IMG/VR virus record: IMGVR_UViG_3300028392_000029
Coordinates: 1 to 64,000 of that record
Length of the DNA: 64,000 nucleotides
Strand: one strand, 5' to 3'
Source: a virus
Made by a program: the position numbers and the translations under genes. Under the pieces are notes generated by a model. That model saw nothing but the letters and a program-made list of their open reading frames with translations. It did no database searches and was not told where the DNA came from. Below are positions 1-53,810 of the stretch, piece after piece. Positions within the stretch are counted from its first letter, which is position 1; the number at the start of each line of letters is the position of its first letter.

Positions 1-22
1 AAACAACACATAGGAGCGAAAC

Positions 23-373
23 ATGGGTTATTTTACAGATTGCGATTTCGACAGCACACACGAGATGCTGGACTGTATCAATGAAGTGATCGAGCGCAAC
101 ATCCGCAACAACTTCGTACAGCATTCCGCCTCGGACTTGGGACTAGACATTCGCTGTGGGCGAGTACTGGTTGATGCCGCAGACGAGATTATTGCTGTGC
201 CCAATCACAACATCCGGATGCTGGACTACTACGGTGGGTTCGAGTACATTACCGAAGGCGACGGGCGCCAGACAGTAGGCGACTACACTTTCTTTACCTG
301 TGTGAGCGATCGTGTACAGGATTGCTTCGACCACTTGAACGAAAAAGAGTCGGTTGACGAGTCTGAAGAATAA
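23..373 (+). CDS. small acidic early protein, unknown function
   Basis: Encodes 116 residues with no family I recognise. The ATG is preceded by the standard early leader RBS TAGGAGCGAAAC (11-22), which fixes the start; its promoter lies before the window. The C-terminus is strongly acidic (ends ESVDESEE). The codons for the VDE tail also carry the -35 hexamer of the next promoter, so the end of this gene is shaped by transcription of its neighbour. Cytoplasmic by composition, with no membrane segment. It belongs to the run of single-gene early cassettes, so a role in host takeover is plausible but only inferred. Confidence 0.8.
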   Translation: MGYFTDCDFDSTHEMLDCINEVIERNIRNNFVQHSASDLGLDIRCGRVLVDAADEIIAVPNHNIRMLDYYGGFEYITEGDGRQTVGDYTFFTCVSDRVQDCFDHLNEKESVDESEE

Positions 374-382
374 CTGTATAAT
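354..382 (+). promoter_or_regulatory. early sigma70 promoter P1
   Basis: TTGACG (354-359), 17 bp spacer, TATAAT (377-382), followed by the leader AATTAACACTTACACAAACA and RBS GGAGCGAA (405-412). The -35 lies inside the upstream coding region. It drives the 415-1511 operon. Confidence 0.9.
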
Positions 383-414
383 TAACACTTACACAAACAC
401 ACTAGGAGCGAAAA

Positions 415-909
415 ATGGGTACACGATCAATGATTGCAATCCAAAATCCCTACAACAAAACAGTTCGCGCAGTCTACTGCCACTGGGACGGGTACTTGGA
501 ACACAACGGCGCTATCTTGCACAAGCATTACAGCAACAGCCCTAAAGTCAACAATCTGATTGCACTAGGCGACTTGTCTAGCCTGCGTCAGGACATTGGT
601 GAGAAGCACGCCTTTAGCCAGTTTGAGATTGACGACCCAGTAGAGCGTGCCGCACACGAAAAGCTCACAGAGACCCAGTGTACATTTTACACACGCGACA
701 GAGGCGAAGACGCTCCGTTCAAAGTGTTCCCTACACTTGCTAAGGCAGCTGACTATTATGACGGTTGCGGTGTAGAATACTTGTATGTGTTCAAATACAA
801 GAAGAGCGACGACTATCAGTCGGGTGGGTGGCACTTTAAGAAGCCCGGCGGACGCTGGAAGAAACTTGCACCAGCTATCGCTCGACTCAAAGCAGAGGAG
901 TGCGCATAA
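415..909 (+). CDS. conserved phage early protein (MGTRS family), unknown function
   Basis: 164 residues. The opening MGTRSMIAI followed by CHWDGYLEHNG (about residues 22-32) is a pattern I know from uncharacterised proteins in many phages, where it marks a small cytoplasmic protein with no established activity. Start set by GGAGCGAAAA just upstream. It is the first gene of a five-gene operon (415-1511) driven by P1; its stop overlaps the next ATG (TAATG), so translation is probably coupled. No catalytic motif can be assigned. Confidence 0.85.
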   Translation: MGTRSMIAIQNPYNKTVRAVYCHWDGYLEHNGAILHKHYSNSPKVNNLIALGDLSSLRQDIGEKHAFSQFEIDDPVERAAHEKLTETQCTFYTRDRGEDAPFKVFPTLAKAADYYDGCGVEYLYVFKYKKSDDYQSGGWHFKKPGGRWKKLAPAIARLKAEECA

Positions 910-1124
910 TGACAGGGTACCAATCAAAGAAGGCTATGGCCTATGACAAGTTGGCCAGAGGGGACTTGCATGACGAAGTCCTCAATCAAATCGCAGAGGA
1001 TTTGCAGGGTGGTGACTTGACAGCCATTGAAGAGCTGTTGAAGTTTGTCCCCCGTGAAAACTTACTAGCCTATCTATCAGAGAACACAGTAATTGACATC
1101 AACAACACCGGAGGTAAATGGTAA
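909..1124 (+). CDS. small early protein, unknown
   Basis: 71 residues (starts MTGYQSKKAM). I chose ATG 909 rather than the upstream GTG at 900 because AGAGGAG (894-900) is well placed for 909 and the start overlaps the preceding stop as TAATG. Central residues are Glu/Asp/Leu-rich and probably helical. No recognised domain. Second gene of the P1 operon; its stop overlaps the next gene in the same TAATG manner. Confidence 0.7.
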   Translation: MTGYQSKKAMAYDKLARGDLHDEVLNQIAEDLQGGDLTAIEELLKFVPRENLLAYLSENTVIDINNTGGKW

Positions 1125-1339
1125 TGAAGAAAGTTATCGTACGCACAGAGCTGATGCAGGAACTTGAAGTGCCGGACTCATGGGAACGCGAAGATGTATT
1201 TGATTTCCTAGCCGAGTACCAATCGTTCCGTACAGCGTTCCAGGGTGTGAGCAACGAAGATCAAACAGCCCGAATCATTGACTTGGGTGTGGTAATTGAA
1301 ACAGTAGAACAACTAGGTGAGGAGTGTTTTGATGAGTAA
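1124..1339 (+). CDS. small early protein, unknown
   Basis: 71 residues from MKKVIVRTEL. ATG 1124 is preferred over ATG 1118 because GGAGG (1110-1114) is at normal distance only from 1124, and it makes a TAATG overlap with the gene before. Predicted alpha/beta with an acidic C-terminus (GEECFDE). No family recognised. Third gene of the P1 operon, overlapping the next gene by 8 nt. Confidence 0.7.
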   Translation: MKKVIVRTELMQELEVPDSWEREDVFDFLAEYQSFRTAFQGVSNEDQTARIIDLGVVIETVEQLGEECFDE

Positions 1340-1511
1340 GATGGCAGAACTGGCATATGATATCGAGCAACTGTATATCGAAGGGTACAGCCCTAAGGCA
1401 ATCGCAGTCCAGCTGGAGTGTCCATTGAGTGTAGTCTACGATTGGCTAGAAGCAACCAATGTGGCAGAAGCGCCACAGGATGAAGAGTACAGCCCCTACA
1501 ACGGCGCTTGA
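1332..1511 (+). CDS. small helix-turn-helix protein
   Basis: 59 residues from ATG 1332 (RBS GAGGAG at 1319-1324). Residues about 8-38 read as a compact helix-turn-helix of the resolvase/homeodomain-like type: IEQLYIEGYSPKAIAVQL followed by a recognition-helix-like SVVYDWLEA. This suggests binding to DNA or a regulatory role, perhaps on the repeated early promoters, but the target is not visible. Last gene of the P1 operon; its final codon overlaps the -35 of promoter P2. Confidence 0.65.
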   Translation: MSKMAELAYDIEQLYIEGYSPKAIAVQLECPLSVVYDWLEATNVAEAPQDEEYSPYNGA

Positions 1512-1536
1512 CACTTTGGGCTTTTGATTGTATAAT
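1508..1536 (+). promoter_or_regulatory. early sigma70 promoter P2
   Basis: TTGACA (1508-1513), 17 bp spacer, TATAAT (1531-1536). The -35 overlaps the stop codon of the HTH gene. RBS AGGAGCAC follows at 1551. Confidence 0.92.
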
Positions 1537-1558
1537 ACATTTATACAGACAGGAGCAC

Positions 1559-1759
1559 ATGATGATCACAGTAGCAAAGATGACAGACGGTAGGATGGTC
1601 GAAGTCGTTCGGACTGCAGAGACTGTGGGCTTCAGCCCTGACAAAGGTTGGGTGATGGTGTGCTTCGACTTTGAAAAGGTTGATCGCAAGCGTGAGCACT
1701 TCAAGTGGGTGCCGGCCACTACCCGATTTGATTGGGTTAGGGCATACGCTTTTGGTTGA
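1559..1759 (+). CDS. small early protein, unknown
   Basis: 66 residues starting MMITVAKM; either of two adjacent ATGs (1559, 1562) could be used behind AGGAGCAC. Probably a small beta-rich fold (alternating hydrophobics in ITVAKMTDGRMVEVV) with an aromatic C-terminus (FDWVRAYAFG). Nothing in it identifies a function. Monocistronic between promoters P2 and P3. Confidence 0.7.
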   Translation: MMITVAKMTDGRMVEVVRTAETVGFSPDKGWVMVCFDFEKVDRKREHFKWVPATTRFDWVRAYAFG

Positions 1760-1784
1760 CAGGGTGTGCTTTTGGTTGTATAAT
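1756..1784 (+). promoter_or_regulatory. early sigma70 promoter P3
   Basis: TTGACA (1756-1761), 17 bp spacer, TATAAT (1779-1784). The -35 overlaps the end of the upstream gene. The leader is nearly the same as that of P2 (ATACAGACAGGAGCAC). Confidence 0.92.
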
Positions 1785-1809
1785 AAACACATACAGACAG
1801 GAGCACACC

Positions 1810-1950
1810 ATGAAGATTACAATCAAAGTACCAAAGAAGCACAGAGAACACATCATCCTGTTCTGTGCAGGCACACCCTTCAAGCAGAAGGTTGTTCAAA
1901 GTAAAGTTAAATATAAACGTCAACCTAAACACAAAGGCAAATATGATTGA
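1810..1950 (+). CDS. very small basic early protein
   Basis: 46 residues, strongly basic (KVPKKHREH near the start; C-terminus KVKYKRQPKHKGKYD), which suggests nucleic-acid or RNA-polymerase binding, though this is only inference from charge. Start set by AGGAGCACACC before ATG 1810. First gene of a pair; its TGA overlaps the following ATG. Confidence 0.65.
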   Translation: MKITIKVPKKHREHIILFCAGTPFKQKVVQSKVKYKRQPKHKGKYD

Positions 1951-2185
1951 TATCGAACTGCACGGACTGAATGCACGGCAACATGTCATCGCCGACATAT
2001 TGTGGGCCTACGAAGATGGCAAGGATGCTGACCGCTTCATCCGCGGCTTGCCCACTGCAGAGCTTCGCAACGAAGCACAGGGAATTAAAGATCTCATGCT
2101 GATGGCCGCTGTGGAACAAGCCTACGATGGAATCAGTGATAACCCTGAAGCCAACAAGGTCATTGACAGGATCCGGAATCGATAG
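1943..2185 (+). CDS. conserved early protein, unknown
   Basis: 80 residues from ATG 1943 (MIDIELHGLNARQHVIADIL). Mostly helical. The opening HGLNARQHVIADILW is a pattern I associate with short uncharacterised proteins of T4-like aquatic phages. Translationally coupled to the preceding basic peptide by an 8-nt overlap. Its last codons carry the -35 of P4. No enzymatic motif. Confidence 0.7.
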   Translation: MIDIELHGLNARQHVIADILWAYEDGKDADRFIRGLPTAELRNEAQGIKDLMLMAAVEQAYDGISDNPEANKVIDRIRNR

Positions 2186-2191
2186 TATAAT
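2163..2191 (+). promoter_or_regulatory. early sigma70 promoter P4
   Basis: TTGACA (2163-2168) inside the upstream coding region, 17 bp spacer, TATAAT (2186-2191); RBS GGAGCGAA at 2211-2218. Confidence 0.92.
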
Positions 2192-2222
2192 TACTACTTA
2201 AACAACAAAAGGAGCGAACCTT

Positions 2223-2489
2223 ATGAACATTAGCACAATCGAAGCCTATGTAGAGCAGAAGAACAAATGGCGTTCTATCTTCAACCAAAAGCCACTGAGC
2301 CTGTTGAACGCACAGGATCGCCAGGCCATTGCCAACTCAATTGATAGCGAACTTAGCCCAGAGAACCTTACCTGCGATGGTGAACTGCGTGGCGCACAAG
2401 TGCGTGACAAGTTCCGTTATCTTACACGAGCCGCTGAGGAATTGCTCAGCATCGATCCTTCAGTAACCTTTTACGAAATGGGAGTCTAA
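2223..2489 (+). CDS. conserved phage early protein, unknown
   Basis: 88 residues. Contains SPENLTCDGELRGAQVRDKF (about residues 44-63), a pattern widely repeated in uncharacterised phage proteins. Predicted mostly helical. Start fixed by GGAGCGAACCTT. First gene of a four-gene unit (2223-3342); the stop is one base before the next ATG, and the GGAG inside its last codons (ATGGGAGTCTAAG) serves as RBS of that gene. Confidence 0.75.
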   Translation: MNISTIEAYVEQKNKWRSIFNQKPLSLLNAQDRQAIANSIDSELSPENLTCDGELRGAQVRDKFRYLTRAAEELLSIDPSVTFYEMGV

Positions 2490-2490
2490 G

Positions 2491-2634
2491 ATGAAAGTCA
2501 TCTTCAATAGCCTGTTAGCAGGTTGGTTCATTGTGCGTGGTAGCCATCAAACGCCCATCTCGGGTCGCTTTGACAGCAAAGAGGCCGCTTTGGCACACCT
2601 TCGTAAACGCAATCCTTTACACACTGGAGTCTAA
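2491..2634 (+). CDS. 47-residue early protein
   Basis: ATG 2491, RBS GGAG at 2481-2484, ends TAA 2632-2634. The peptide begins MKVIFNSLLAGWFIVRG and ends KRNPLHTGV; the middle (FDSKEAALAHLRKR) looks helical. Function unknown. Its end (ACTGGAGTCTAATATG) repeats the same RBS-in-stop arrangement as its predecessor. This supports it being translated in the operon despite its size. Confidence 0.65.
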   Translation: MKVIFNSLLAGWFIVRGSHQTPISGRFDSKEAALAHLRKRNPLHTGV

Positions 2635-2635
2635 T

Positions 2636-3220
2636 ATGCCTAATTGGTGCAACAACTATCTAGAACTAGAACACGAAGATCCTGCTATGATTGAGCGGGC
2701 CAAGAAGGCCTTTGCTGATGGCAGACTCCTAGCAGAGTTCGTGCCCGTGCCAGCAGATCTGCATGTGGTTGCAGGACGGGTTGGTAATGATGAGGATCCA
2801 GAACAGATCAAACTGGAAGAAGATACAGCCCGCAACATTGCCACACACGGCTATGCCACATGGTATGACTACTGCGTCAATGAGTGGGGCACCAAGTGGG
2901 ATGTGGGTGGTGAAGGTGATCAAGCCAGCCAGGATAGTCCTACTGACCTCTGTATGAACTTTGATTCAGCCTGGGCACCACCCATAGCCGCAATGGAGAA
3001 GTTCCAGGACTTGGGCTTCAAGGTCAAGTTGGTGTATTGGGAATCAGGCATGTGCTTCTGTGGTCTCTTTGATGAGAACGGTGATGACTACTTCGACTAC
3101 ACCGATATGAGTGCGGCTGAAGTGGCTGAGCATATCAATCCTGAGATCGACGAGTGCATGTGCATCGTTGAGAACTTGGAAACATGGGAAGAAGACAACC
3201 GTGAAGAGGAGGCCGAATAA
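2636..3220 (+). CDS. Api92/YubB-like ferredoxin-fold protein
   Basis: 194 residues from ATG 2636. The N-terminus MPNWCNNYLELEHED is the hallmark of the Api92-like/YubB family (DUF1281-type ferredoxin-like domain), found in phages and plasmids without a known biochemical role. The central block has NEWGTKWDVGG and SAWAPPIAAMEKF, and a second half has VYWESGMCFCGLF; all fit that family. The C-terminus is very acidic (EEDNREEEAE). No metal-binding CxxC pair that would make it a true ferredoxin. Coupled to the next gene by TAATG. Confidence 0.85.
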   Translation: MPNWCNNYLELEHEDPAMIERAKKAFADGRLLAEFVPVPADLHVVAGRVGNDEDPEQIKLEEDTARNIATHGYATWYDYCVNEWGTKWDVGGEGDQASQDSPTDLCMNFDSAWAPPIAAMEKFQDLGFKVKLVYWESGMCFCGLFDENGDDYFDYTDMSAAEVAEHINPEIDECMCIVENLETWEEDNREEEAE

Positions 3221-3342
3221 TGGACTTTTGGACATGGCTTGCTTCCTGCCCAGTGAAGTATGAAGTTGATAGCCTACAGGGCTTTGACGGAGTCAGCGTG
3301 GCATTCTACCCACCCTCTGAAGAAGAGGACGAAGAAGAGTAA
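3220..3342 (+). CDS. 40-residue acidic-tailed protein
   Basis: ATG 3220 overlaps the preceding stop (TAATG), with GAAGAGG just upstream as RBS; ends TAA 3340-3342. Starts MDFWTWLASCPVKYEV and ends with an acidic run (SEEEDEEE). Function unknown; support is the coupled start and clean junction with promoter P5 three bases after its stop. Confidence 0.55.
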   Translation: MDFWTWLASCPVKYEVDSLQGFDGVSVAFYPPSEEEDEEE

Positions 3343-3345
3343 TGG

Positions 3346-3374
3346 TTGACTGCCTACCAAAAAGGCAGTATACT
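3346..3374 (+). promoter_or_regulatory. early sigma70 promoter P5
   Basis: TTGACT (3346-3351), 17 bp spacer, TATACT (3369-3374). The leader TTAACACTTAACAACAACA precedes AAGGTACAGCAATG, so this cassette lacks the GGAGCGA box. Confidence 0.85.
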
Positions 3375-3402
3375 TAACACTTAACAACAACAAGGTACAG
3401 CA

Positions 3403-3534
3403 ATGAAAACCACCCGAGAACTTAACACAGCGCATGAGGCCAAACAGGCCGATCGATTGCGTCCCCAGAAACCAGTCTACGACTTTGCGCCCCTGGAAGC
3501 AGTAATGAGGCAATGGATCAAGGCACATGAGTAA
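3403..3534 (+). CDS. 43-residue early protein
   Basis: ATG 3403 follows promoter P5 and a modest RBS (AAGG at 3392-3395); ends TAA 3532-3534. Starts MKTTRELNTAHEAKQADRLR and ends AVMRQWIKAHE. Charged and helical, function unknown. Overlaps the next gene by 8 nt (ATGAGTAA), which supports coupled translation. Confidence 0.55.
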   Translation: MKTTRELNTAHEAKQADRLRPQKPVYDFAPLEAVMRQWIKAHE

Positions 3535-3793
3535 GCTGAACTTATTCGGTAGGCCCTGGGTAGTATTCAATCCAGCAAACAAGGCACACCGACTCCATTA
3601 CCATAACTTCGTTATTACAGGTAGTTGGGGGCAGTGTCCATTTAGGTTTGTTGTAGATGAAGATCATGGTGATTTGGTAACAATGATCCAACGAACTCTT
3701 ATCCATTATTACACTGATAAAGAGTTCGGTACTGTGGTAAAAAAGCCACAAGAAACGGTTCGCCAAAAGCGGAAGAAAACGGTTGACAACTAA
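3527..3793 (+). CDS. small early protein, unknown
   Basis: 88 residues, start ATG 3527 (MSKLNLFGRPWVVFNP). Contains a His/aromatic-rich central part (HRLHYHNFVITGSWG) and a lysine-rich C-terminal tail (RQKRKKTVDN). The last codons supply the -35 of P6. No recognised family. Second gene of the P5 unit. Confidence 0.7.
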   Translation: MSKLNLFGRPWVVFNPANKAHRLHYHNFVITGSWGQCPFRFVVDEDHGDLVTMIQRTLIHYYTDKEFGTVVKKPQETVRQKRKKTVDN

Positions 3794-3811
3794 CCGAAAT
3801 AGTTGTATAAT
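3783..3811 (+). promoter_or_regulatory. early sigma70 promoter P6
   Basis: TTGACA (3783-3788), 17 bp spacer, TATAAT (3806-3811). The base after the -10 core starts an inverted repeat TATGAAC...GTTCATA (3811-3817/3829-3835), a possible operator unique to this promoter. Confidence 0.9.
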
Positions 3812-3866
3812 ATGAACATGGACAAGAAGTTCATATTTTTTAACACACACAGAAGAGGTATTTAAA

Positions 3867-4232
3867 ATGGCTACAGATAAATTGTTTACAGTGGTTGGCG
3901 TTTCTAAACTTGCAGGCGAGTACAAAGTTCGCTTTGCCAATGATACCATGCGTGTCAAGGTGCTCGAGAAGCACGGTCACGAAGACACACGTTTGGTCCA
4001 GTTGGACTCAGCGATGACCAAGTATGATGCGGTCAAGACCATTGCTACATGGCCTGAGTTTGCTGATGCCAGTGCGCAGTCAGCTATTGCAGAGTACTTG
4101 GATGAAAAGGCTCCTAAGACAGCCGCTCCTAAGGCTAAGACTCCAGCAGTTAAAGAGTTGGCAAAAGCCCTTAAGACTAAGGCACCTGCAAAGACAGCTA
4201 AGGTGCTTGAGGACGAAGACGCTCCTTTCTAA
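3867..4232 (+). CDS. DNA-transaction-associated small protein with SSB-like acidic tip
   Basis: 121 residues: a compact N-terminal domain (about 1-75), a Lys/Ala/Pro-rich linker (about 80-113), and an acidic tip ending EDEDAPF. That order (globular domain, flexible linker, acidic end closing with Phe) copies the layout of bacterial SSB C-termini (DDDIPF), which recruit replication partners. The N-terminal part (KLFTVVGVS...) resembles short uncharacterised T4-like phage proteins and is not a recognisable OB fold. A role in recruiting or competing for SSB-binding partners is inference. RBS GAAGAGG upstream; own promoter P6. Confidence 0.75.
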   Translation: MATDKLFTVVGVSKLAGEYKVRFANDTMRVKVLEKHGHEDTRLVQLDSAMTKYDAVKTIATWPEFADASAQSAIAEYLDEKAPKTAAPKAKTPAVKELAKALKTKAPAKTAKVLEDEDAPF

Positions 4233-4246
4233 TCAATGGTACCACA

Positions 4247-4435
4247 ATGAGCTTTATCCAGTTTGAAGTCTGGGCTACATTCGACGGACATGAACAGTTC
4301 GTCGAGTGTTTTCCAACCCTAAAAGAAGCAGAAGGGTTTGTAGAAGATGAGAGAGAGTTCTGGGATGAACTTTGGATCGTCAAGGATGAAGATGATTTGG
4401 AACCAGTAGAGATTAAACGAGTTCAGGGCCTATAG
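4247..4435 (+). CDS. small acidic protein overlapping a tRNA gene
   Basis: 62 residues (MSFIQFEVWATFDGHEQF...), acidic and alpha/beta-like, unknown. No good Shine-Dalgarno; probably read through from the gene 14 nt upstream. The last codons and the TAG stop (4433-4435) lie inside the tRNA: tRNA positions 1-10 encode the end of the protein. Expression of the two products from one transcript is therefore mutually exclusive once the tRNA is processed. Confidence 0.65.
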   Translation: MSFIQFEVWATFDGHEQFVECFPTLKEAEGFVEDEREFWDELWIVKDEDDLEPVEIKRVQGL

Positions 4436-4502
4436 CTCAGTTGGTTAGAGCAGAGGACTCATAATCCTTTGGTCCCTGGTTCGAGTCCAGGTGGGCCCAC
4501 CA
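4426..4502 (+). tRNA. tRNA with CAT anticodon (probably Ile2, else Met)
   Basis: A complete 77-nt cloverleaf. Acceptor GGGCCTA pairs with TGGGCCC; D arm GCTC/GAGC; anticodon stem GAGGA/TCCTT with loop CTCATAA (anticodon CAT); T arm with GGTTCGAGTCC. The terminal CCA is encoded (4500-4502). The body, especially CTCATAATCC followed by TTTGGTC, resembles tRNA-Ile2 (CAU modified to lysidine, reading AUA) more than elongator Met, but identity is not certain by eye. Phage tRNA-Ile2 would help read AUA codons, which are common in the late genes here. Confidence 0.95.
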
Positions 4503-4508
4503 CACTAG

Positions 4509-4536
4509 AAAGGTGTTGTAGAAATACAACACCTTT
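4509..4536 (+). terminator. 12-bp hairpin terminator behind the tRNA
   Basis: AAAGGTGTTGTA, GAAA tetraloop, TACAACACCTTT: a perfect 12-bp stem 7 nt after the tRNA CCA end. The following tract (CGTCTT) is only weakly U-rich, so it may act as terminator and/or as a processing barrier for the tRNA 3' end. Confidence 0.75.
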
Positions 4537-4540
4537 CGTC

Positions 4541-4569
4541 TTGACATCTTTACCAAAAGGCAGTATAAT
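4541..4569 (+). promoter_or_regulatory. early sigma70 promoter P7
   Basis: TTGACA (4541-4546), 17 bp spacer, TATAAT (4564-4569); leader TAACACATACACACAGCA then AAGGAGACAG as RBS. Confidence 0.93.
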
Positions 4570-4597
4570 TAACACATACACACAGCAAGGAGACAGT

Positions 4598-4816
4598 ATG
4601 ATGAAATTTGATGCGATATTTGATCGCAAGCATGGTAGCCTCTATGACAGAGGTGCCGCAGACAGTTACTATGGTCGCCCACGCGATCCCCATTGGTACC
4701 CTGAAGGTACTTACCGTGGCGAGCGTATCCAAGCCACCGACGAGCTAGACATCCGTGAGTACATGGAAGGCTATGACTACAATGAGCGGTATGGCGACAA
4801 AAAGAGTTGGGATTAA
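4598..4816 (+). CDS. conserved phage early protein, unknown
   Basis: 72 residues from the double ATG at 4598/4601. Core motif DRGAADSYYGRPRDPH (about residues 18-33) and the C-terminal YNERYGDKKSWD are a combination I know from many phage hypothetical proteins. Rich in Tyr, Asp and Arg; soluble. RBS AAGGAGACAG. Monocistronic between P7 and P8. Function not known for the family. Confidence 0.85.
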   Translation: MMKFDAIFDRKHGSLYDRGAADSYYGRPRDPHWYPEGTYRGERIQATDELDIREYMEGYDYNERYGDKKSWD

Positions 4817-4819
4817 CGG

Positions 4820-4848
4820 TTGACAGATTAGTCCAAAAGTCGTATAAT
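4820..4848 (+). promoter_or_regulatory. early sigma70 promoter P8
   Basis: TTGACA (4820-4825), 17 bp spacer, TATAAT (4843-4848); RBS CGGAGCACAC follows. Confidence 0.93.
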
Positions 4849-4881
4849 TAGCACATGAACACAAACAACACGGAGCACACA

Positions 4882-5340
4882 ATGGATTACGAAAACATAG
4901 TAGACACACAAAAGGGCATGGCACAGATGGTGGGCAAGACTTTTGTGCAGGTCACTGGCTCCGTTGGTGGCGGTGAGATGATGTTCGTAACCGCACAGGG
5001 TGAACGTTTCATGTTTGCTCACCAGCAAGATTGTTGCGAGTCAGTGGACATCAACGACATTGTGGGTGACCTCCAGGACCTAGTTGGCACTCCTTTGTTG
5101 GTGGCTGAAGAAGTCCGGGGTGCTACTGAGCCAGACGAAGAGCACTACGAATCCTACTCCTATACCTTCTACAAGTTCGCTACCCGCAAGGGATATGTGG
5201 ATGTGCGTTGGTTGGGTGAGAGCAACGGCTACTACTCAGAAGGTGTGGACCTGTTCGTAGAGGGTGTGTCAGGAGCACAAGAAGCCACTGGCACCACCAA
5301 CCTGGGCGAACTGCTTCGTATGCGGTTGACTGGCGACTGA
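4882..5340 (+). CDS. DUF7448-like conserved protein
   Basis: 152 residues from ATG 4882 (RBS CGGAGCAC; the upstream in-frame ATG at 4855 lies in the leader and is rejected). The block FAHQQDCCESVDINDIVGDL (about residues 49-68), then TFYKFATRKGYVDVRW and SNGYYSEGVDL, match a domain of unknown function widespread in phages and bacteria (DUF7448 type). The Asp-Cys-Cys-Glu cluster could bind a metal but no role is established. Its C-terminal LTGD codons carry the -35 of P9. Confidence 0.85.
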   Translation: MDYENIVDTQKGMAQMVGKTFVQVTGSVGGGEMMFVTAQGERFMFAHQQDCCESVDINDIVGDLQDLVGTPLLVAEEVRGATEPDEEHYESYSYTFYKFATRKGYVDVRWLGESNGYYSEGVDLFVEGVSGAQEATGTTNLGELLRMRLTGD

Positions 5341-5354
5341 TTTGGCAGTATAAT
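5326..5354 (+). promoter_or_regulatory. early sigma70 promoter P9
   Basis: TTGACT (5326-5331) inside the upstream gene, 17 bp spacer, TATAAT (5349-5354); RBS GGAGCGAA at 5374-5381. Confidence 0.9.
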
Positions 5355-5383
5355 TAACACACTAACACAGCAAGGAGCGAACC

Positions 5384-5578
5384 ATGCAAGTACACTTTAT
5401 CAACTCAGGTCTAGGCACTGATAGCGGCTTCAAAGAAGTCGACGTGCAGAGCTTCAAAATGGACCATGACGATGCACCCTACGCCATCGTCAGTAACCCA
5501 TTCTTTCCTGGTGATAGCCTACGTGCTGAGTACAACTACTTCAACGGATGCCTGCAATGGGTGGTTGACTTGGATTGA
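5384..5578 (+). CDS. small early protein, unknown
   Basis: 64 residues, starts MQVHFINSGLGTDSGFKEVD and ends QWVVDLD; beta-rich and acidic. Start set by GGAGCGAACC. The VVDL codons at the C-terminus contain the -35 of P10. No family recognised; a single-gene cassette. Confidence 0.75.
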   Translation: MQVHFINSGLGTDSGFKEVDVQSFKMDHDDAPYAIVSNPFFPGDSLRAEYNYFNGCLQWVVDLD

Positions 5579-5593
5579 TTTTGGCAGTATAAT
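5565..5593 (+). promoter_or_regulatory. early sigma70 promoter P10
   Basis: TTGACT (5565-5570), 17 bp spacer, TATAAT (5588-5593); RBS GGAGCG at 5615. Confidence 0.9.
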
Positions 5594-5624
5594 TACTACA
5601 TACAGACACACAAAGGAGCGCAAC

Positions 5625-6008
5625 ATGGAATCATTCAAAAGCTGGGAAGAGATGAGCACTTTGGAACAGTATGCCTGCCAATACTGGGATATGTATAAGG
5701 ATGCCTACGGCGTTCGCCCACGCGGTATCGACACTACTGACTGGACAGAAGCCCAGTTTGAAGCTGAGTTCGTTCAGTTGGGCAAGACCATTGATGCCAA
5801 CTACAAAGAGCAGTTGGAGTCTGAGGCTAAGGCTATCCAGCGTTTCGAAGCACAGGTTGAGAGCTTTATCCAGTCGGGTGCTAAGACACGCGAAACAGCT
5901 ATCCGTTGGTTCCATGAGGCAGAGGGTAGCAATGGGGATGACGAGTACCTGTGCTACTTGTTGGGCTTGCCCTACCGCTATTTTGTGGTTGACGCGGTTG
6001 CAGTTTGA
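5625..6008 (+). CDS. conserved phage early protein, unknown
   Basis: 127 residues from ATG 5625. The segment YACQYWDMYKDAYGVRPRGI (about residues 15-34) is a recurrent pattern in uncharacterised phage proteins. The rest is helical (QLESEAKAIQRFEAQVESFI) and ends in a hydrophobic tail (YRYFVVDAVAV). RBS GGAGCGCAAC. The C-terminal VVDA codons hold the -35 of P11. No activity known. Confidence 0.85.
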   Translation: MESFKSWEEMSTLEQYACQYWDMYKDAYGVRPRGIDTTDWTEAQFEAEFVQLGKTIDANYKEQLESEAKAIQRFEAQVESFIQSGAKTRETAIRWFHEAEGSNGDDEYLCYLLGLPYRYFVVDAVAV

Positions 6009-6017
6009 CAGTATAAT
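5989..6017 (+). promoter_or_regulatory. early sigma70 promoter P11
   Basis: TTGACG (5989-5994) inside the upstream gene, 17 bp spacer, TATAAT (6012-6017). A second TTGACA at 6005-6010 is too close to the -10 to act. RBS GGAGCGAA at 6039-6046. Confidence 0.88.
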
Positions 6018-6050
6018 ATACACATACACAGCAACTAAGGAGCGAAACTT

Positions 6051-6194
6051 ATGTTACAAACAATTTTAAATGCATTCTATATAACTATAGAACTGTGGAT
6101 CTTCCTAGCAATCTTGGGCGCGGCCCTGTTAGTTGAAGAGGGCGTAACAGCCTATAACAAACGTAAGTTGGTTGACAACCCTACGCTTTGGTAA
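6051..6194 (+). CDS. 47-residue single-span membrane peptide
   Basis: ATG 6051 behind GGAGCGAAACTT; ends TAA 6192-6194. Residues about 11-28 (ITIELWIFLAILGAALLV) form one membrane segment, followed by a basic tail (YNKRKLVDNPTLW), predicting N-out/C-in or the reverse with the basic end inside. A small inner-membrane early peptide could act in exclusion or membrane takeover, but nothing in the sequence proves that. Its LVDN codons carry the -35 of P12. Confidence 0.75.
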   Translation: MLQTILNAFYITIELWIFLAILGAALLVEEGVTAYNKRKLVDNPTLW

Positions 6195-6200
6195 TATAAT
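6172..6200 (+). promoter_or_regulatory. early sigma70 promoter P12
   Basis: TTGACA (6172-6177), 17 bp spacer, TATAAT (6195-6200); both hexamers start within or next to the end of the upstream gene. RBS GGAGCGA at 6221-6227. Confidence 0.93.
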
Positions 6201-6232
6201 AGTAACTTAAACAGCAACAAGGAGCGACCCAA

Positions 6233-6616
6233 ATGGCTAAAGTAAATTACGACAACTTCGCAAGTTTTGACCTTAACGAAGCTTGTGACCACTTTGACTG
6301 TACAGATCAAAAGGCCTGGAAGAAGATCCGCCCTTTCATAGTAGCAGACGGAACAGACTACGAGGCAGTGATGACAGAAGGCTTTGACTTCTACGACATC
6401 AGTGAAGAAGAGTACTCAGCATTTGATGCAGGTGTTAAGTATGCTATGACTAAGATGAATATAGCATTTGAAAAGGCAGGCGTAGAGCTTCAGATATGTG
6501 AAGTGGATTTGGTAGATGCCTCAGGCTTTATGATGGTTCGTTGCGATGACGAGCCAGAAGACTTTGTTAAACGAGCCCTTAAGAAGCCTGTCATGATGGT
6601 TGACAGTTGGGTTTAA
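6233..6616 (+). CDS. early protein, unknown
   Basis: 127 residues, acidic, alpha/beta, starts MAKVNYDNFASFDLNEACDH. Contains acidic stretches (SEEEYSAFDAG) and ends KKPVMMVDSWV; the VDS codons carry the -35 of P13. No family recognised and no membrane segment. RBS GGAGCGACCCAA. Confidence 0.75.
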   Translation: MAKVNYDNFASFDLNEACDHFDCTDQKAWKKIRPFIVADGTDYEAVMTEGFDFYDISEEEYSAFDAGVKYAMTKMNIAFEKAGVELQICEVDLVDASGFMMVRCDDEPEDFVKRALKKPVMMVDSWV

Positions 6617-6628
6617 TTGCAGTATAAT
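6600..6628 (+). promoter_or_regulatory. early sigma70 promoter P13
   Basis: TTGACA (6600-6605), 17 bp spacer, TATAAT (6623-6628), leader AACACTTACACAAACACA, RBS GGAGCGAA (6650-6657): the clearest copy of the full cassette. Confidence 0.95.
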
Positions 6629-6662
6629 TAACACTTACACAAACACAATGGAGCGAAACATT

Positions 6663-6983
6663 ATGGTAACAGCACAAGAAATCCAAAAAGGCTTTGTCCT
6701 TGCAGAGAACGCAGGGCAAGCCATGTACCAACAGATAGGCGAGCGTGACGCTTGCGGCTTTGGTTGGGTAGACGTCTACGTGGATCGTACCAACTCAAAG
6801 CAGGCCAAAGAGTTGATTGCCGCAGGCTTCCGCAAAGACTACAAGCCCAAGTGCTTGAGCTTCTGGGATCCAGCAAAGGTTCCTACACAATCAGTATCAG
6901 TTAAAGAAGCGGGTGCGCAGGCTTTGGCTACTTACCTGCAGGGCTTGGGCTTGCGGGCCTATGCAGGAAGCAGGTTAGATTAA
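6663..6983 (+). CDS. conserved phage early protein, unknown
   Basis: 106 residues from ATG 6663. An earlier in-frame ATG (6648) is part of the RBS itself and is rejected. The block ACGFGWVDVYVDRTNSK, then AAGFRKDYKPKCLSFWDP and the ending LRAYAGSRLD, form a pattern repeated in many phage hypothetical proteins. Soluble alpha/beta; function unknown. First of three overlapping genes (6663-7293) of the P13 unit. Confidence 0.85.
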   Translation: MVTAQEIQKGFVLAENAGQAMYQQIGERDACGFGWVDVYVDRTNSKQAKELIAAGFRKDYKPKCLSFWDPAKVPTQSVSVKEAGAQALATYLQGLGLRAYAGSRLD

Positions 6984-7165
6984 TGATAGAGGCAATCCTG
7001 GGCTTTGCAGTCATAGCAGGCCTGGGCCTCATGTTCATCGAGTTGTTGGGCATGTTGGCTCTACTGTTCTTTGGCTTGATCATATTCATGGGTCCATTCC
7101 TGTGGATGAAGATACTTTTTGGCGTAGGCGTTGTGGTCTACTTGTTAACCAAGGGCATCAAATGA
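6983..7165 (+). CDS. small membrane protein
   Basis: 60 residues, almost entirely hydrophobic. Two predicted membrane segments (about residues 4-33 and 36-56) with a short break at the MGPFLWMK region, ending in the basic TKGIK. ATG overlaps the upstream stop (TAATG). Inner-membrane location expected. It is paired with another membrane peptide directly downstream, so the two may assemble together. Holin activity cannot be claimed from sequence alone. Confidence 0.75.
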   Translation: MIEAILGFAVIAGLGLMFIELLGMLALLFFGLIIFMGPFLWMKILFGVGVVVYLLTKGIK

Positions 7166-7293
7166 AAACATTCTATGCCCTAGCGGCAGTAGGGGCGAGT
7201 CTAGTCTGTTTAGCCACAGACAGTGAAACAGCCTTGTTCATGGCGGTATTGGCTGGCTTGGCATTAGTCCAAAAGACGTTGACTGGCGAGTAA
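7162..7293 (+). CDS. 43-residue membrane peptide
   Basis: ATG 7162 overlaps the preceding TGA (ATGA), so the start is coupled. Two short hydrophobic stretches (YALAAVGASLVCLA and ALFMAVLAGLALV), ending KTLTGE. It could carry a signal-like first helix. Function unknown. The LTGE codons provide the -35 of P14. Confidence 0.65.
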   Translation: MKTFYALAAVGASLVCLATDSETALFMAVLAGLALVQKTLTGE

Positions 7294-7307
7294 ATATCTA
7301 GTATAAT
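7279..7307 (+). promoter_or_regulatory. early sigma70 promoter P14
   Basis: TTGACT (7279-7284), 17 bp spacer, TATAAT (7302-7307); RBS GGAGCGA at 7329-7335. Confidence 0.9.
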
Positions 7308-7341
7308 TACTACTTAAACAAACACATAGGAGCGACAGCTT

Positions 7342-8205
7342 ATGAGCAGGATTATTAATGCAATGGATTTGGTATCAACTAAAAGCCTAGAGCAAGAAGC
7401 AGTGAACAAAGTACTTACAGAAACAGATGAGCAGATCATGAAGCGTCTTGCAGATCGCTTTGAGATCCTGGAAGACATGACACGTGCCGTTAAGAAGGGC
7501 GATGTCAAGGCTATGATCGTTACAGGCCCTCCAGGCGTGGGCAAGAGCTTTGGTGTAGAGAAGGTCTTAGCCAAACACGATGTGTTCGCTAACGTTGCGC
7601 AAGACGGCAAGTTGAAGAAGTATCAAGTGGTCAAAGGCGCTATGAGTGCGCTGGGCTTGTACTCAAAGCTGTATGAATACTCAGACAAGAAGAGCATCCT
7701 AGTGTTCGATGACTGTGATAGTGTATTGCTTGATGACCTTAGCCTGAACATCCTGAAGGCAGCATTGGACTCAGGTAAGAAGCGTATGATCCACTGGAAT
7801 ACAGACAGCCGCTTGCTCAAAGATCAAGGTGTGCCCAACTCATTCGAGTTCAAAGGCGGTGCTATCTTTATTACCAACATCAAGTTCGAGCACGTTCGTT
7901 CAAAGAAGCTGAAGGATCACTTGGAAGCTATTGAGTCACGTTGCCACTACTTGGACCTCACGATCGATACAGAGCGTGAGAAGCTACTCCGTATCCGACA
8001 GGTTGTACGTGATTGCGGCATGTTGGACGAGTACGAATTGGACGAGTTTGCCACCAATCAAGTGGTAGACTTTGTAGCCAACAATGCCAAGAAGATGCGT
8101 GAGTTGAGCTTGCGTATGGTCCTGAAGATTGCAGACCTGCGCAGAACATTCCCGGACAAGTGGGAAGCTGTAGCAGAAGTAACATGTATGCGTGGCGCTC
8201 GCTAG
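7342..8205 (+). CDS. AAA+ ATPase
   Basis: 287 residues, cytoplasmic. Walker A GPPGVGKS at residues 62-69, Walker B ILVFDDCD at 119-126, a sensor-1-like IFITNI near residue 178, and an arginine-rich C-terminal helical lid (RELSLRMVLKIADLRR). This is a single-domain P-loop ATPase as found in T4-like phages of aquatic bacteria, of the RFC/RuvB-like class. It might load a replication or transcription factor, but its partner is unknown. RBS GGAGCGACAGCTT. It is the last gene before the hairpin array, which forms its 3' untranslated region unless an internal promoter exists. Confidence 0.9.
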   Translation: MSRIINAMDLVSTKSLEQEAVNKVLTETDEQIMKRLADRFEILEDMTRAVKKGDVKAMIVTGPPGVGKSFGVEKVLAKHDVFANVAQDGKLKKYQVVKGAMSALGLYSKLYEYSDKKSILVFDDCDSVLLDDLSLNILKAALDSGKKRMIHWNTDSRLLKDQGVPNSFEFKGGAIFITNIKFEHVRSKKLKDHLEAIESRCHYLDLTIDTEREKLLRIRQVVRDCGMLDEYELDEFATNQVVDFVANNAKKMRELSLRMVLKIADLRRTFPDKWEAVAEVTCMRGAR

Positions 8206-8254
8206 TGCATACAAGTAAGCGGGCCTAGACCCGTAGCAGTAAGAACATGCCCAA

Positions 8255-8272
8255 CGATTCGCTCCCGGCAAG
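8255..8272 (+). repeat. 18-nt loop repeat, copy 1
   Basis: CGATTCGCTCCCGGCAAG, identical to 8334-8351. Seventeen bases (TTCGCTCCCGGCAAGCA, 8258-8274) recur at 53688-53704 within the sedolisin gene, antisense to it. Confidence 0.95.
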
Positions 8273-8315
8273 CATGTTCAACTAAGAAACCAAGCCCGCA
8301 AGGCACAGTTTCTTT

Positions 8316-8366
8316 GCCCTAGTCCAGTAAGCCCGATTCGCTCCCGGCAAGACTAGGGCTTTTTTT
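8316..8366 (+). terminator. rho-independent terminator after the ATPase gene
   Basis: Perfect 9-bp stem GCCCTAGTC/GACTAGGGC followed by TTTTTTT (8360-8366). The loop is unusually long (26 nt) and carries the repeated anti-RBS sequence; an inner GCC/GGC pairing may shorten it to 12 nt. Confidence 0.85.
8334..8351 (+). repeat. 18-nt loop repeat, copy 2
   Basis: Identical to 8255-8272, in the loop of the terminator hairpin. Confidence 0.95.
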
Positions 8367-8368
8367 GG

Positions 8369-8397
8369 TTGACAGTTTGGGCTAAGTCTAGTACAAT
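8369..8397 (+). promoter_or_regulatory. early sigma70 promoter P15
   Basis: TTGACA (8369-8374), 17 bp spacer, TACAAT (8392-8397), starting three bases after the terminator T-run; RBS GGAGCG at 8415. Confidence 0.88.
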
Positions 8398-8423
8398 TGA
8401 CACATACACACACAGGAGCGCAC

Positions 8424-8756
8424 ATGTTACAGACTACAGAACTAGACACTAAGCCCGCAGGGTTCTATGCCTATGCTGCCGCTAGAGATGCCAGCATGCG
8501 TAGCTATGCCGCTAGCACAGGCTACACACTAGCAGAGCGCACTAGGGCACAGCGTACACTGCTAGGCTTAGAGCTAGCATACACGTCTACAGCGCAGTAC
8601 ATCACATACCGTAAGAAGTTCGTAGTAGTTAAGCTAGAGAACGCTCGTGTACGCGACCGTGCAAGTCTTAGGGCACTAGAGGCACAGTATGAGGCGGAAG
8701 GAATCTCAAAGACAGTTACTGCACAAGCAGTCAGCTACAGGATCCCAAAAATTTAA
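8424..8756 (+). CDS. Ala/Arg-rich early protein, unknown
   Basis: 110 residues from ATG 8424, basic, rich in Ala, Arg, Tyr and Thr, probably helical throughout (ERTRAQRTLLGLELAY; VRDRASLRALEAQYEAEG). No family recognised. The DNA is odd: I count nine CTAG tetramers in 333 bases, where about one is expected by chance, mainly through CTA leucine and GCT-AGx codon pairs. Last gene of the early plus-strand block. Confidence 0.75.
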   Translation: MLQTTELDTKPAGFYAYAAARDASMRSYAASTGYTLAERTRAQRTLLGLELAYTSTAQYITYRKKFVVVKLENARVRDRASLRALEAQYEAEGISKTVTAQAVSYRIPKI

Positions 8757-52238: not shown

Positions 52239-53810
52239 TTACCTAGCCCCTGTTGTACGTCTAGGATAAGTCTGACCCGAAGCTGGTCTAAATCCATAGT
52301 TTAATTTAGGAAATGTAGATCCTGTATGAAAATATTTGTAAATTTGATCCACCTTTGGAGTACCCATACCAGTTACTGGATCCCATCCTGCTGTTGTTGT
52401 ATATCCAGTAGCGTAACCGTTACGGTTATCACCGCTGGTAATGTCATTAAATAATGCGCTGTTGGCATACCAAGTGGCCATATTAAACGGTATTCTAAAT
52501 CCTAGTAATCCAGATAATCTTGCCCATATGCCGGCAAGCAATGGAGCTGATGCGCTGGTACCGCCATATTGCACTAGACTATTGTTTACATAGAATTGAA
52601 AACCTGTGTTAGGATCGGCAGGGGCACTTATATCCGGAACTCCGCGACGCGGTAGTGCAGTTACAGCTCCAGTTGTAGTTGAAGTTTGTGTTCTAGTTGT
52701 TAGGCCGTTTTGCCAACTTGGGCGTGGAACTGTGCTACTAATTCCGCCGCCACTTCCACTCCAAGCAACTTCGCTAGTAATTTGATTACTGCCGTTAAGT
52801 ACTACAGTAGTTCCGCCTGCAGAAACCATGTATTGACTACAGCAAGTATACTGCATATTCAAATCATTTGCTCCGCTATCGCCACTACTGACAAAAACTG
52901 TTATACCCTTGGCAATACAGGCTTGTAGTGCAGTATCATATTGGGTGCCGTCGCCGATGCCCCAGCTGATATCTAGTACACAGGGGTTATTCACAGTATC
53001 AGTAGCAGTGGTATTGATATTATCTATAATATTTTGAGTGCCGCCGTTTGGTGCTGTATAGTAGGCTATTTTTGCTCGGGGTGCGGCTGCGCCGGCACAA
53101 TAGATGTCTAACATACTTTCTGCATCACTAGTGTTACTGGCTGTAGCACCATTAACATTTATTCTAGTAATTGAGGGAGCAGATAATCCAATTCGACTAA
53201 AAGTATTTGTTACATCACTGGCACTATAACCAGTAACATAGCCGCTGTAGGTCAATTCAAAAATACCAATGCACACTCCGTAGCCGTCACCTGTGGGAGA
53301 TTTGTAAGCTGTATTCATTTGAACTGGCGTCACAGCAATTGCCGGTGTCACTGCCATGGGGTCTATATTATGTTTAATTGCATGTTTAACTGCAATAAAA
53401 CTTTCATCAAATCCCGGAACTTGTTCAATCATACTTGCAATGTCTGTTGGTATCGTCGGAGTAACATCGGGCATCATAAAAGTTCTGCCGTCAGCTGTTA
53501 CATCTTGTAGCGTAATTTTAAATAGCCTGTTAAAAACTTCCACAGTTCCTTCGACTTTGACCACACTTTGTCCGTGGTGTGCTTCTGTTACTGTAAGATT
53601 ATTTGATCTAGCCCACGCTGTTACCCTATTTAGATTATCGTCTGTTGCACCAAATTGATAAACAAACTCACTGTGCCCTAAAATTGGTTCGCTCCCGGCA
53701 AGCACATTGTCAGCATACTGTTTTAAAGTCATTCCGTTTTCATGTGTATCTCTAATAAGATACAAACTAATCTTAATAACATCGGTAATATTTTTATTAA
53801 TTGAAGACAT
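52239..53810 (-). CDS. sedolisin (S53, pro-kumamolisin-type) protease
   Basis: 523 residues: propeptide (about 1-150) and peptidase domain. Catalytic set of sedolisins is complete: Glu231 and Asp235 (SDAESMLDIY), Asp311 (SSGDSGAND), Ser419 (YGGTSASAPLLAG); the calcium site is DITSGDN (Asp456) with GWDPVTGMGTP. No signal peptide. The C-terminus GFRPASGQTYPRRTTGAR probably is a virion-attachment tail. It sits between fibre genes, so it likely rides on the virion to digest surface proteins or mature fibres. Sedolisins prefer acidic pH and are rare in phages as far as I know. The minus-strand mRNA at 53688-53704 complements the early hairpin loops. Confidence 0.9.
   Translation of the reverse strand: MSSINKNITDVIKISLYLIRDTHENGMTLKQYADNVLAGSEPILGHSEFVYQFGATDDNLNRVTAWARSNNLTVTEAHHGQSVVKVEGTVEVFNRLFKITLQDVTADGRTFMMPDVTPTIPTDIASMIEQVPGFDESFIAVKHAIKHNIDPMAVTPAIAVTPVQMNTAYKSPTGDGYGVCIGIFELTYSGYVTGYSASDVTNTFSRIGLSAPSITRINVNGATASNTSDAESMLDIYCAGAAAPRAKIAYYTAPNGGTQNIIDNINTTATDTVNNPCVLDISWGIGDGTQYDTALQACIAKGITVFVSSGDSGANDLNMQYTCCSQYMVSAGGTTVVLNGSNQITSEVAWSGSGGGISSTVPRPSWQNGLTTRTQTSTTTGAVTALPRRGVPDISAPADPNTGFQFYVNNSLVQYGGTSASAPLLAGIWARLSGLLGFRIPFNMATWYANSALFNDITSGDNRNGYATGYTTTAGWDPVTGMGTPKVDQIYKYFHTGSTFPKLNYGFRPASGQTYPRRTTGAR
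53688..53704 (+). repeat. 17-nt match to the early hairpin loop
   Basis: TTCGCTCCCGGCAAGCA on the plus strand, identical to 8258-8274; antisense to codons about 36-41 of the sedolisin gene. Confidence 0.9.

Follow-up and report, generated by a model that had tools for sequence, protein, structure and literature searches.

The window, that is, the whole stretch of DNA analyzed here, covers positions 1–64,000 of an IMG/VR virus record 223,176 bases long. This record contains T4-like structural and replication genes, including tail sheath, terminase and a DnaB-type helicase. We found 0 matches to DNA resembling the window among 50,697 phage records, and matches in those records to the ATPase protein described below were all under 60% identity. 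The ATPase matches in genome contigs were four stray metagenome-bin contigs and are uninformative on the host. The early region (bases 1–8750) consists of small + strand genes, many with their own TTGACA/TATAAT promoter. A tRNA with a CAT anticodon lies within it (window 4426–4502); several relatives also had tRNAs near the corresponding early region.

Behind an AAA ATPase gene of the early region, we observed an array of hairpins with the following features:

7342–8205, + strand: AAA ATPase gene (phrog_1250), homologue of T4-type nrdC.10; its 3′ UTR contains the element
8243–8279, + strand: hairpin 1, with stem P1 GAACATGC/GCATGTTC, inner CG/CG and loop ATTCGCTCC at 8257–8265
8258–8265, + strand: predicted anti-RBS 8-mer TTCGCTCC, copy 1
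8284–8314, + strand: middle hairpin AAGAAAC/GTTTCTT, without the anti-RBS loop
8316–8366, + strand: hairpin 3, the terminator, with stem GCCCTAGTC/GACTAGGGC, inner CCG/CGG and loop ATTCGCTCC at 8336–8344; the hairpin ends at 8359 and T7 follows at 8360–8366
8337–8344, + strand: predicted anti-RBS 8-mer TTCGCTCC, copy 2

The first-pass annotation had placed two loop-bearing hairpins with a common 18-mer in the 3′ region of the ATPase gene. Both hairpins are present, and the 18-mer CGATTCGCTCCCGGCAAG occurs in identical copies at 8255–8272 and 8334–8351. They adjoin the gene and are not within it, lying in the 3′ UTR after the stop at 8205, and the third, motif-free hairpin between them (8284–8314) had been overlooked. 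The terminator had been read correctly as rho-independent with seven T: hairpin 3 is an intrinsic terminator, a stable hairpin with a T run after it at 8360–8366. Folding of the 8242–8366 RNA gave −40.1 kcal/mol (z = −3.97). Public annotation of the ATPase homologues was inconsistent, with “thioredoxin” in two Pseudomonas phage records and nrdC.10 in Aeromonas phage 25.

The complement of the loop was found in the leaders of early genes. The typical leader of the first gene after an early promoter is ACACA...GGAGCGAA...ATG, and the early leaders are near-identical cassettes with the box close behind TATAAT-type promoters. We observed the following boxes:

13–20, + strand: leader box GGAGCGAA, ATG at 23
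405–412, + strand: leader box GGAGCGAA, ATG at 415
2211–2218, + strand: leader box GGAGCGAA, ATG at 2223
5374–5381, + strand: leader box GGAGCGAA, ATG at 5384
6039–6046, + strand: leader box GGAGCGAA, ATG at 6051
6650–6657, + strand: leader box GGAGCGAA, ATG at 6663
6221–6227, + strand: leader box GGAGCGA, 7-base match, ATG at 6233
7329–7335, + strand: leader box GGAGCGA, 7-base match, the ATPase’s own (predicted target), ATG at 7342
5615–5620, + strand: partial leader box GGAGCG, ATG at 5625
8415–8420, + strand: partial leader box GGAGCG, ATG at 8424, first gene past the element

All six GGAGCGAA boxes that had been proposed as the early RBS are thus in place, each a few bases 5′ of an ATG, as are the previously reported GGAGCGA at 6221 and 7329 and GGAGCG at 5615 and 8415. 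Among 16 promoter-proximal starts marked by eye in the window, 6 had GGAGCGAA, 2 GGAGCGA, 2 GGAGCGC and 3 GGAGCAC. The full box was not present at every early start: the three GGAGCAC leaders (before ATGs 1562, 1810 and 4882) match the loop over 5 bases only, and none of these boxes was found at operon-internal early starts in the window. On both strands of the 64-kb window, GGAGCGAA occurred 9 times compared to 0.74 expected, and 0 of 100 shuffles reached 9.

Structural genes had been described as lacking the box. One GGAGCGAACC-ATG lies at 183091–183103 (− strand) of the 223-kb record (G000, in L040), far from the early cluster. The gene behind it, whose product starts MADEEVKSASELKKEDW, appears holin-like from our reading of its own sequence. 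It would be unsurprising for a lysis gene with this tag to be targeted as well. As an extended target we also tried a 15-base exact match to TTCGCTCCCGGCAAG (window 53688–53702, + strand, inside the minus-strand structural gene 52239–53810). Because this match was absent from the relatives searched, it is probably due to chance.

The loop was predicted to pair with the six full-match leaders at −13.1 to −13.3 kcal/mol, loop strain being outside this figure. The canonical 16S 3′ end was predicted to pair with the same leaders at −5.6 to −8.3 kcal/mol (about −6.5). Mean predicted pairing was −10.1 kcal/mol for early first genes and −3.5 kcal/mol for late genes; at the GGAGCAC leaders of the window, the predicted GGAGC pairing was about −8.8 kcal/mol. 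The anticipated excess of predicted pairing at early starts over permuted loops was observed, the real loop being equalled by 4 of 500. Energy alone ranked the real loop third among 256 A-NNNN-CTCC loops. Eight-base pairing within a 9-base loop would impose strain if the inner stem (CG/CG or CCG/CGG) stayed closed; this short stem lies beside an internal loop and could open upon binding.

The exact 18-mer CGATTCGCTCCCGGCAAG was present in 30 other viral contigs, and the motif was directly behind the same ATPase in 29 of them. To avoid selection on the loop, a second sample of relatives was gathered by the ATPase protein alone. In this sample, one or two TCGCTCC loops lay behind the ATPase at every locus of about 72% ATPase identity or more. 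The loop was found behind the ATPase in 47/48 array-clade rows examined, usually in two copies. The 47 distinct motif-bearing array-clade loci had two copies in 44 cases and one in three. We observed a T-run no more than 110 nt past the last loop in 47/47 array-clade relatives, and at least two GGAGCGA-ATG leaders in all array-clade loci for which 1 kb or more of upstream sequence was available, with L072 as the sole exception.

Across the 47 distinct relatives (at least 72% ATPase identity), the loop was nearly invariant and the stems varied with strong compensatory change. In the terminator hairpin, each of the 11 outer-stem pairs had changes on both sides (131 cells of this kind in the full structure), and one inner-stem pair swapped A-U and G-C. 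In this hairpin 83.8% of cells were paired and the covariation score was 0.657, compared to at most 0.356 for slid partners. Hairpin 1 had both-side changes at all 8 outer pairs, with 91.9% paired and a covariation score of 0.716 compared to at most 0.202 for slid partners. Closing stems around an unchanged ATTCGCTCC or AATCGCTCC included CG/CG, GTG/CAC, CTG/CAG and CCGG/CCGG. One relative (L143, about 1424–1640) had five successive hairpins with five different stems and A[AT]TCGCTCC loops, then a terminator. Some relatives also had a motif-free hairpin at the place of the middle hairpin. Because the stem alignments were anchored on the loop, they are evidence for the stems; the evidence for loop conservation is the ATPase sample. 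Scanning for strong terminators with anti-leader loops was discarded: with a short inner stem separated from the rest by an internal loop, many elements escaped it. Bare 6-mer counting in hairpin loops, also discarded, returned mostly promoter and tRNA sequences.

We observed the same loop on a second scaffold. Phages at 62–69% ATPase identity with GGAGCGA leaders were mostly without the array, and in these phages CCG-ATTCGCTCC-CGG occurred in another hairpin, located after a small HTH_39 gene (PF14090, phrog_4973). Loci gathered with the HTH_39 protein numbered 118 distinct. Leaders were called by rule and not from annotation (GGAG, an ATG within about 12 bases and an open frame). The 108 HTH_39 loci with at least five leaders comprised 59 with a CGCTCC element, 7 with a TGCTCC element (L205 doubtful) and 42 with none. 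The share of GGAGCG/GGAGCA among GGAG leaders was 54% with an element compared to 14% without (P = 1.7e-16, Mann-Whitney, loci taken as independent). In some contigs of the group with none, the HTH_39 locus was a second copy, and the element may therefore lie elsewhere in that genome. Behind the HTH_39 gene of the GGAGCA clade (L332 8264–8494, L263, L284 and others), we also observed a conserved NTCGCTCC-GAAGTCC followed by a hairpin, CCyGGG-GGTAGTGT-CCCrGG, with a conserved loop GGTAGTGT.

These data bear on whether the element acts only in cis or locally. It could serve the ATPase operon alone, ending transcription and stabilising the mRNA at its 3′ end and perhaps pairing with the ATPase mRNA’s own leader, with the other matches arising from copied cassettes. 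Such a local role would suit a good terminator with T7 (hairpin 3) and a T-run in all 47 relatives, a 7-base match in the ATPase leader itself, and near-identical early leader cassettes. However, a terminator can do without a constant loop sequence, whereas here the loop stays constant on free stems, and does so in hairpins that are not terminators and after an unrelated gene as well. Copying of cassettes would also leave unexplained why the box is identical to the loop complement. We consider a role restricted to the ATPase operon unlikely.

We observed an association between loop and leader across phages. Of 91 ATPase loci for which five or more leaders were called, 62 had the loop and 29 lacked it; two or more GGAGCGA leaders were present in 60 of the former and 6 of the latter (P = 5.7e-14, related loci taken as independent). 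With shuffled loop cores (up to 300), the lowest value was P = 0.096. Six loci had GGAGCGA leaders without the loop in the DNA examined. The top GGAG leader 8-mer was GGAGCGAA in both the array clade (153/414) and the HTH_39 clade (138/536), and it was missing among the listed top leader 8-mers of element-free HTH_39 loci. Leader conservation dropped after base 8, at the end of loop complementarity. Leaders of the form GGAGCGAA-ATG clustered within about 10 kb of the element in records of about 100–223 kb, and the reversed pattern gave 0–1 matches.

Several phages combined GGAGCA-rich leaders with a TGCTCC hairpin (L111/L263, L264, L265, L274, L277, L314 and L155), and all but L155 had a further single-stranded TGCTCC copy behind the HTH_39 stop codon. 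TGCTCC loops occurred only on GGAGCA backgrounds, with 2–3 origins on an HTH_39 protein tree of few columns and many open forks. Loop type and leader type were associated in a two-by-two comparison (P = 3e-4, Fisher’s test, loci taken as independent). The CG/CA leader split was mostly one deep event. The compared sequences are suggestive of a loop change accompanying the leader change (GGAGCA/TGCTCC). CGCTCC was retained in 16 GGAGCA-dominant HTH_39 loci, often unstructured behind the stop codon, and likewise in L072 of the array clade, which has GGAGCA leaders. Keeping CGCTCC against GGAGCA leaders costs one base of match and leaves GGAGC pairing. We rejected strict loop-leader covariation because most GGAGCA phages keep CGCTCC. 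A changed leader with an unchanged loop, which the first-pass annotation had named as a refutation of its reading, was thus found in about 17 more distant, mostly GGAGCA phages, and loop and leader are not tightly locked family-wide. In L160 and L307, whose leaders are mostly GGAGAA, a matching loop was not found in the DNA examined.

This retention of CGCTCC in about 17 GGAGCA-leader phages would also be expected if the loop were bound by an RNA-binding protein of the phage or its host and the leader match were a by-product of the resemblance between Shine-Dalgarno and anti-Shine-Dalgarno sequences. Protein-binding hairpins likewise show an invariant loop on a variable stem, and CTCC alone matches GGAG by chance. 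Here, however, four further bases are matched (CGAA/TTCG), leader conservation fades where the loop ends, loop and leader co-occur far above shuffled cores, and some GGAGCA phages have TGCTCC in both copies. A protein site therefore appears quite improbable. A further alternative is that a phage transcription factor binds GGAGCGAA/TTCGCTCC as double-stranded DNA, both just downstream of early promoters and at the element. In its favour, leader and loop are the same duplex 8-mer in DNA and leaders lie close behind TATAAT-type promoters. Against it, covarying stems enclose the element 8-mer in a hairpin loop, on the strand with the terminal T-run, and the leader box keeps the Shine-Dalgarno position before the ATG at no fixed distance from the promoter. 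We consider this reading very improbable.

We propose that the ATPase 3′ UTR (about 8206–8366) is probably a conserved phage riboregulator that masks early ribosome-binding sites in trans and lowers early translation. Two hairpins present the 9-base loop AUUCGCUCC, of which eight bases are complementary to GGAGCGAA, a tag that begins at the Shine-Dalgarno core and extends 3′ of it in promoter-proximal early leaders. The element would act after release by processing or as the mRNA tail, and would occupy early ribosome-binding sites in trans, including the ATPase’s own. Early translation would then fall as ATPase transcripts accumulate, and the 7-base match in the ATPase leader would yield negative feedback. 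Masking of the ribosome-binding site is expected because the anti-Shine-Dalgarno sRNAs NfeR1 (PMC10746234) and RNAIII (PMC2837412) act in this way. With the pairing preserved across dozens of relatives, the RNA probably lowers the early genes together. The analysis establishes the structure, its conservation, its complementarity to the leaders and the association of loop and leader across phages; that the RNAs pair inside the cell, and that repression, feedback and timing follow, is inference. By comparison, the anti-RBS reading of the first-pass annotation has good support from the invariant loop on covarying stems, the two unrelated scaffolds and the strong GGAGCGA association; taken as a whole, with a discrete repressing RNA and the early-to-late switch that it would time, that interpretation is supported in part.

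The proposed riboregulator would account for a leader box that extends beyond the Shine-Dalgarno core. If the proposal is true, a whole temporal gene class is under one short RNA-RNA code, with no repressor protein, and this code is portable, as leader tag plus loop. Early-to-late timing in uncultured large phages would become testable by a two-plasmid reporter. The 3′-UTR hairpins beside early genes of other phages merit a scan of loop against leader.

The PeSL cassettes of T4-type phages place early promoters and stem-loop terminators between early genes; to our knowledge, no loop-leader complementarity is known for them. We found no description of such an RNA for T4-like or large phages in the literature searched, with subscription journals mostly outside the search. 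At the gathering score, Rfam matched only tRNA in the window and seven relatives; SpF51 and SNORA49 matches had weak E-values and were set aside as chance.

The cuckoo RNA/alpha-r14 sRNAs have several hairpins with an identical anti-Shine-Dalgarno loop motif and freely differing stems, and NfeR1 silences by pairing about eight bases at the translation start (PMC10746234). The phage element similarly has at least two hairpins with an identical loop and variable stems. Unlike these sRNAs, it has the loop AUUCGCUCC and the motif UUCGCUCC, not CCUCCUCCC, it is phage-encoded behind an ATPase or HTH_39 gene, and its predicted targets are the phage’s own early genes with a matching extended tag. With a differing motif and no Rfam match, it is not a member of cuckoo/alpha-r14. 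In Staphylococcus aureus RNAIII and related RNAs, C-rich hairpin loops bind the Shine-Dalgarno region of several mRNAs and so keep the ribosome off (PMC2837412). RNAIII itself is long and chromosomally encoded, shows a general UCCC loop signature and makes additional duplex contacts, whereas here the short loop alone would give specificity. A phage precedent is the c4 antisense RNA of P1/P7, which blocks the ribosome-binding site of a phage gene via presumed loop sequences (PMC12197685); the loop of the element likewise complements ribosome-binding sites of its phage. However, c4 has one target (ant) and a role in temperate-phage immunity, whereas the element matches a tag shared by many early genes.

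The T4 RegA protein represses about 30 early mRNAs together by occupying translation starts (PMC3014915). RegA (PF01818) was not found in this record and nine relatives, which may be incomplete records; the T4 control was positive. RegA is a protein that binds A/U-rich starts, whereas the regulator proposed here is an RNA. We hold it an evenly balanced question whether, in this T4-like large-phage lineage, an RNA does RegA’s job, with hairpin arrays that would read the shared address GGAGCGAA and shut the class off while address and reader drift together.
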